Shown piece by piece: positions 34,862-62,265 of a stretch of 64,000 nucleotides of DNA. A program made the translations under genes and the position numbers. The DNA comes from Atrina japonica. Taxonomy: Eukaryota; Mollusca; Bivalvia; Pterioida; Pinnidae. Under the pieces are notes generated by a model. That model was not told where the DNA came from. It saw only the letters and a list, made by a program, of their open reading frames with translations, and did not search any database. Location of the stretch: NCBI GenBank assembly GCA_030159075.1, contig BROG01000342.1, forward strand, positions 534,501 through 598,500, read 5' to 3'. Positions within the stretch are counted from its first letter, which is position 1. Every line of letters starts with the position of its first letter.

Positions 34862-35011
34862 ATGGGAAGTGGTGGCAGCAAACAGAAAGCAACTTCCAGT
34901 GCCACAAAAACCCCAGATCAAAAAGCACCACCAGCTACCACAAAAACAGAAGACAAGAACAATAGCACTGGTGGAGAAAAACAAGCCTCAAGTCAGCAAG
35001 TAAAACAGAAA
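34862..35011 (+). CDS. LRR-RRM gene exon 1
   Basis: Residues 1-50. The start codon is in good context (A at -3, G at +4), and an in-frame TGA lies at 34832-34834. It encodes MGSGGSK and then a T/K/S-rich stretch. Donor gtgagt, phase 0. An upstream non-coding exon is possible but not located. Confidence 0.85.

Positions 35012-62265: not shown

Follow-up and report, generated by a model that had tools for sequence, protein, structure and literature searches.

Several described proteins combine, or are built from, the parts considered here. The ribonuclease inhibitor (RI), which binds pancreatic-type ribonucleases, and the leucine-rich repeat (LRR) domains of NLR proteins share the same RI-type horseshoe of alternating helix and strand. 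In U2A'-U2B'' an LRR protein is paired with an RNA recognition motif (RRM) domain, as two separate nuclear chains. NXF1/Mex67 likewise pairs an RRM with an LRR fold, and a passage in PMC4330390 gives the domains of NXF1 as RRM, LRR, NTF2-like and UBA. Here we describe a gene of the bivalve Atrina japonica that joins many LRRs and an RRM in a single chain, behind a predicted N-terminal lipidation motif. It lies in a stretch of 64,000 nucleotides with a G+C content of 34% (assembly GCA_030159075.1, contig BROG01000342.1, positions 534,501 to 598,500), hereafter the window. Comparison of the encoded protein with its relatives indicates that the gene is the molluscan representative of an ancient protein family without a name.

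The gene and its family

A search with residues 185-1011 of the window protein against 5.8 billion proteins, in which 7983 candidates were scored, returned 63 proteins at E <= 0.001, and the relatives covered 98-100% of the query. The closest, from Pinctada, aligned with 100% of the query at 63% identity, followed by Crassostrea angulata (60%) and Mytilus (57%), while the distant relatives from Owenia, Oculina and Acanthaster showed 37, 36 and 35% identity. From P0037 onward the entries of this first list were not members but LRR proteins, NLRs among them, that match part of the query. Members were found in bivalves, gastropods, a chiton, an annelid, a nemertean, a starfish, sea urchins, crinoids, Ciona intestinalis, a coral and Chromosphaera. 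Those of a wider search include Nk52_evm65s745 and three unnamed proteins (P0070, P0073 and P0074), and a passage in PMC6981761 assigns the Nk52 prefix to the ichthyosporean Chromosphaera perkinsii. From P0075 onward, the named matches of the wider search were mostly vertebrate NLR-type LRR proteins with a few protist LRR proteins, and no vertebrate member occurred in the best 120 of 247 matches of this search (7994 candidates scored, not exhaustive). Homology of the window protein spans the LRRs to the C-terminus, which places it in this LRR-linker-RRM-PAYADGRIW family.

In a tree of 29 rows, support was 100/99 for each of the echinoderms, the molluscs, the bivalves and the pair of Ciona with P0070, and 97/94 for the lophotrochozoans; the window protein stood next to Pinctada (82/83) inside a clade of seven (100/99). 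Its root is arbitrary, the placement of the coral is weak (fork 94/71), and the branches of Chromosphaera and P0074 are long. P0074 is very divergent and keeps the linker, the RRM-like part and the end CYTDGRIS; P0073 is without the C-terminal peptide. The two may represent an older or decaying branch of the family.

The first-pass annotation of this DNA, made from the letters alone, had suggested a lineage-specific protein. Proteins with their parts in the same order are spread over the bilaterians and are also present in a coral and a single-celled holozoan; given these relatives in other phyla and in an ichthyosporean, a lineage-specific invention is rejected. The same annotation found no named family for the arrangement, and here it agrees with our database and literature searches, in which no family name turned up. 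Openly licensed literature searched for myristoylated, invertebrate or holozoan LRR plus RRM proteins, and for six member gene identifiers, returned neither name nor function, and the database labels of members read 'uncharacterized', 'hypothetical' or 'RRM domain-containing'.

The gene spans 34862-62265 on the forward strand. Rebuilding the chain from open frames and splice sites gave the same coordinates as the first pass, with 20 exons that amount to 3036 nt including the stop codon and encode 1011 amino acids (aa). All 19 introns are GT-AG, the phases are consistent and the frame is open to the stop. The exons are as follows.

34862..35011 (+), exon 1: aa 1-50; start MGSGGSKQK, a predicted N-myristoylation site (Gly2/Ser6) kept in relatives, and disordered tail
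36043..36246 (+), exon 2: aa 51-118; disordered tail, poorly conserved
39047..39409 (+), exon 3: aa 119-239; end of disordered tail, helical cap, first LRR strand
39647..39772 (+), exon 4: aa 240-281; LRR, 80% identity with Pinctada
40830..40966 (+), exon 5: aa 282-327; LRR, contains LGLDYFSRCVGP
41725..41866 (+), exon 6: aa 327-374; LRR
42320..42448 (+), exon 7: aa 375-417; LRR
42827..42941 (+), exon 8: aa 418-456; LRR
43499..43696 (+), exon 9: aa 456-522; LRR
44505..44747 (+), exon 10: aa 522-603; LRR
45581..45804 (+), exon 11: aa 603-677; LRR
49452..49548 (+), exon 12: aa 678-710; LRR
50022..50159 (+), exon 13: aa 710-756; last LRR, then helix
51057..51164 (+), exon 14: aa 756-792; folded linker, conserved LGG..G
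51690..51806 (+), exon 15: aa 792-831; folded linker, conserved TD (805-806)
53223..53311 (+), exon 16: aa 831-860; folded linker, conserved P-S-W-L
56022..56147 (+), exon 17: aa 861-902; RRM beta1 (RNP2 IYIGNLP), alpha1, beta2
57023..57118 (+), exon 18: aa 903-934; RRM beta3 (degenerate RNP1 NGVGWGLM), alpha2
59268..59356 (+), exon 19: aa 935-964; RRM beta4, start of C-terminal helix
62121..62265 (+), exon 20: aa 964-1011; long helix, C-terminal peptide RHAYRLAHPAYADGRIW-COOH, stop

Exons 4-20 align with the Pinctada protein without a gap, at 38-83% identity each, and therefore the exon chain is not a product of chance. Exon 3 shows 48% identity with small gaps, and in the disordered tail identity drops to 32% (exon 1) and 14% (exon 2), with the start MGSGxSK retained. 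The long intron 16 (53312-56021), which separates the LRR and linker exons from the RRM exons, would suit an LRR gene and an adjacent RRM gene joined in error, but in relatives that align with 100% of the query a single protein carries both parts. Three of them (P0005, P0019 and P0021; 1035, 934 and 970 aa) are encoded on contigs of 3945, 2932 and 3087 bases, too short for introns of this kind, so that their sources are probably complementary DNA (cDNA). Since the Pinctada relative covers all of residues 185-1011, the LRR and RRM exons belong to one gene. Single-protein relatives and the exon-by-exon alignment contradict two joined genes, an explanation that we reject and to which we give almost no probability. 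The first-pass proposal that the 20 exons join in phase into one protein is thus borne out by the rebuilt GT-AG chain and by full-length relatives. In the 832-Mb source genome, the Pinctada protein gave 19 matches, 16 at this gene and three elsewhere that involve LRRs only at 30% identity, and the sole match of the C-terminal 49 residues was exon 20. Within reach of this genome search, the gene looks single-copy.

Protein architecture and conserved ends

AlphaFold models of two relatives show a disordered tail, an RI-like LRR solenoid, a folded linker, an RRM and a long helix. In the window protein the disordered N-terminal part takes up about 180 residues, and the LRRs (205-760) precede the RRM (866-952). 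From residue 218 to residue 734 the Pinctada model has 19 strands of LRR type, leaving aside two extra short ones, and a structure search matched the model to RI-type structures. Whole-model structure searches filled with LRR matches, and these fold results concern the LRR solenoid. The first-pass account of a disordered tail followed by about 18 LRRs and then an RRM is therefore in good agreement with the exon chain and with the models of relatives.

Pfam RRM_1 (PF00076) scored the window protein at 12.2 bits and its C-terminal piece at 15.4, under the cut-off of 20.7. The same model matched 12 of 23 members at E <= 0.1 (best 1.6e-5), the window protein not among them, and one of six distant members, the coral, at E <= 0.01. 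With a limit of E <= 0.1, a profile built from the domain in 15 members retrieved 86 PDB sequences (best E 1.2e-7), and the names of the best 60 of these fit RRM proteins. The predicted fold is beta-alpha-beta-beta-alpha-beta; of nine blocks of ten residues in the Pinctada model, seven have a predicted local distance difference test (pLDDT) score of 94-97 and the other two of 82-87. The profile match and the predicted fold thus agree with the C-terminal RRM named in the first pass, though RRM_1 stays below its cut-off.

Conservation within the domain was read from an alignment of 42 rows, that is, 46 rows minus P0010, P0028, P0031 and P0073. RNP2 is near-canonical, with Tyr (Tyr870) and Leu each in 41 rows. 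RNP1 is half degenerate: Gly is invariant and Trp (Trp914) occurs in 41 rows, with Phe in the remaining one, but position 1, K or R in the consensus, is N, S, T or A, and position 3 is aromatic in a single row. The RRM is acidic in every row (isoelectric point, pI, 4.17-5.19), and the helix and tail that follow are mostly basic (median pI 9.3, range 5.2-10.5). Because RNP1 is degenerate and the domain acidic, a protein seems a more likely ligand than sequence-specific RNA; RNA binding is possible but comes second.

The most conserved part of the protein is its extreme C-terminus, which the first pass did not describe. The mean frequency of the commonest residue is 0.88 over residues 992-1011, compared with 0.66 in the RRM and 0.64 in the first LRRs, and Pro1003, Tyr1005 and Gly1008 are present in 42/42 rows. 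The family peptide, YxxxxPAYxxG[RL][IV], sits at the very end of the window protein, and apart from it the top-conserved stretch is LGLDYFSRCVGP in exon 5. Motifs at both ends were counted over 46 rows, without the partial P0023 and P0033, and these counts include isoforms and sister species, so that the rows are not independent. A PAYxxG-type end is found in 44 of them, the window protein included; P0073 lacks it and in P0074 it has diverged. Searched against the PDB, the C-terminal 49 residues gave a single row (E 0.75).

At the other end, 33 of the 46 rows have MG...[ST] somewhere in their first 25 residues, 31 of them at residue 1. N-myristoylation has a known consensus, and the window protein, which starts MGSGGSK, has the Gly2 and Ser6 of the MGxxxS motif of the family. 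The lipidation motif reported in the first pass is therefore present as a sequence motif and is widely shared. Cys3 accompanies it in 13 of the 33 motif rows, as in MGCGSS (coral, Owenia), MGCSSS (starfish), MGCGQSK (Ciona) and MGCSGSK (Chromosphaera).

Possible roles

We propose that the protein is a membrane-anchored scaffold in which the RRM, divergent and acidic, and the C-terminal peptide serve to dock a protein partner, a reading to which we give a probability of about 0.5. The first-pass idea of a scaffold that might link RNA, or a protein bound by the RRM, to a membrane is thus a reasonable hypothesis. A myristoyl group on Gly2, joined in the MGC lineages by palmitate on Cys3, would hold the protein at the inner face of a membrane, and the disordered tail would serve as a flexible tether that gives it reach. 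One protein could then bind to the LRR horseshoe, and a second docking module could be made up of the RRM, the helix and the C-terminal peptide. Several observations weigh against this proposal. Ten of the 46 rows have no N-terminal motif, and three more (P0013, P0016 and P0031) have it in a variant form or at an internal position. Among the ten, P0020, P0036 and P0074 look incomplete, P0010 is over-long, and P0017, P0024, P0025, P0027, P0029 and P0073 start elsewhere; they include the Pomacea, Patella, Littorina and Lottia models, which start near the LRR cap, either through annotation or through real loss. In the window protein itself MGSGGSK has no Cys3, and for this reason palmitate is not expected there. 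In addition, two aromatic positions of an RRM usually stack on bases, and both are retained (Tyr870 and Trp914), which fits RNA binding. Some RNA-binding RRMs are acidic too, and acidity is weak evidence.

These last points bear on a membrane-anchored RNA tether, in which the RRM would bind RNA, a localised mRNA for example, and the anchor and LRRs would keep it at the membrane. The near-perfect RNP2 (VYLSNLP type), the conserved Gly and Trp of RNP1 and the RNA-binding RRMs at the top of the profile matches (ZCRB1, hnRNP A1) speak for such a role; the missing basic residue at RNP1 position 1, the missing aromatic at position 3, the acidity in all rows and the presence of a single RRM, with Pfam finding no further RNA-binding domain in the window protein or in six distant members, speak against it, and we regard it as an unlikely though serious alternative. 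A bolder proposal, rather doubtful in our judgement, is a membrane-anchored LRR-RRM adaptor that predates animals, with the RRM carrying RNA or an RNA-processing partner and the nearly invariant C-terminal peptide bound by a conserved receptor.

The solenoid has led us to weigh two further roles. Several of the closest PDB LRR chains are axonemal (9fqr, 9e5c, 8th8, LRRC34, DRC5) and some myristoylated proteins go to cilia, as would suit a ciliary or flagellar scaffold in which myristate fixes an RI-type LRR protein to the axoneme or to the membrane of the cilium. That match is to a generic RI-type repeat, inflammasome and oocyte NLRPs score equally, and no family member was found in the best 60 of 72 or the best 60 of 101 PDB matches, making a ciliary role improbable. 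More improbable still is an LRR receptor of innate immunity, akin to NLRs but with the NACHT domain lost: Pfam scans of the window protein, 23 members and six more distant members found no NACHT, on which ground NLR membership is rejected, and a single copy with a species-like tree is unlike expanded immune LRR families.

Whichever partner is involved, the last dozen residues are almost frozen between organisms as far apart as a unicellular holozoan and sea squirts, which points to strong selection and makes the C-terminal peptide a concrete bait for a partner. The family also offers a definable test case of a predicted lipid-anchored RRM protein. Its architecture is made of known folds in a combination for which our searches found no description, and its conservation is striking.

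Genomic surroundings and comparison with known systems

Repeats are found within and around the gene. About 670 bases upstream, two overlapping open reading frames (ORFs) at 33149-34194 (+) may, by eye, be the end of a non-LTR (long terminal repeat) retrotransposon reverse transcriptase; Pfam gave no reverse transcriptase match in these ORFs. A dispersed element of 183 bases occurs at 9574-9756 and at 50579-50761, in intron 13, the two copies being 93% identical, and just upstream of the second lies what by eye is a tRNA-derived head of a short interspersed element (SINE), in which ARAGORN found no tRNA. An 87-base element has six dispersed copies (7276, 8836, 22745, 23253, 56421 and 56890), five of them 72-94% identical to the reference copy; the last two lie in intron 17. 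Tandem arrays occupy 3221-6947 (75-base repeat, about 50 copies, 98% matches), 47538-48948 in intron 11 (32-base unit, 44 copies) and 60005-61083 in intron 19 (67-base unit, 16 copies).

Compared with the systems described at the outset, the window protein shares about 20% identity with the ribonuclease inhibitor and NLR LRRs, and differs from them in its larger number of repeats and in its linker, RRM, helix, tail and lipidation motif. The likeness to U2A'-U2B'' ends at the single chain and the lipidation motif. With regard to NXF1/Mex67, the first-pass remark that NXF factors have the opposite order is correct, since the LRRs come first here; there are about 19 repeats and a lipidation motif, Pfam LRR_NXF1-5 reached 12.2 bits against a cut-off of 30.5, and neither NTF2-like nor UBA (TAP-C) domains matched in Pfam up to E 1. 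Membership in NXF/Mex67 is rejected because the order is reversed and these two domains gave no match. The true counterparts are the orthologues Pinctada FSP39_008700, Crassostrea LOC128181513, S. purpuratus LOC581313, Ciona LOC108949782 and Chromosphaera Nk52_evm65s745. Their sequences are divergent, some gastropod models are without the N-terminal tail and the C-terminal ends can differ (PAYQNGRIW in Ciona, PAYQNGLIS in Chromosphaera), but they share with the window protein its length, domain order, N-terminal motif and C-terminal peptide.
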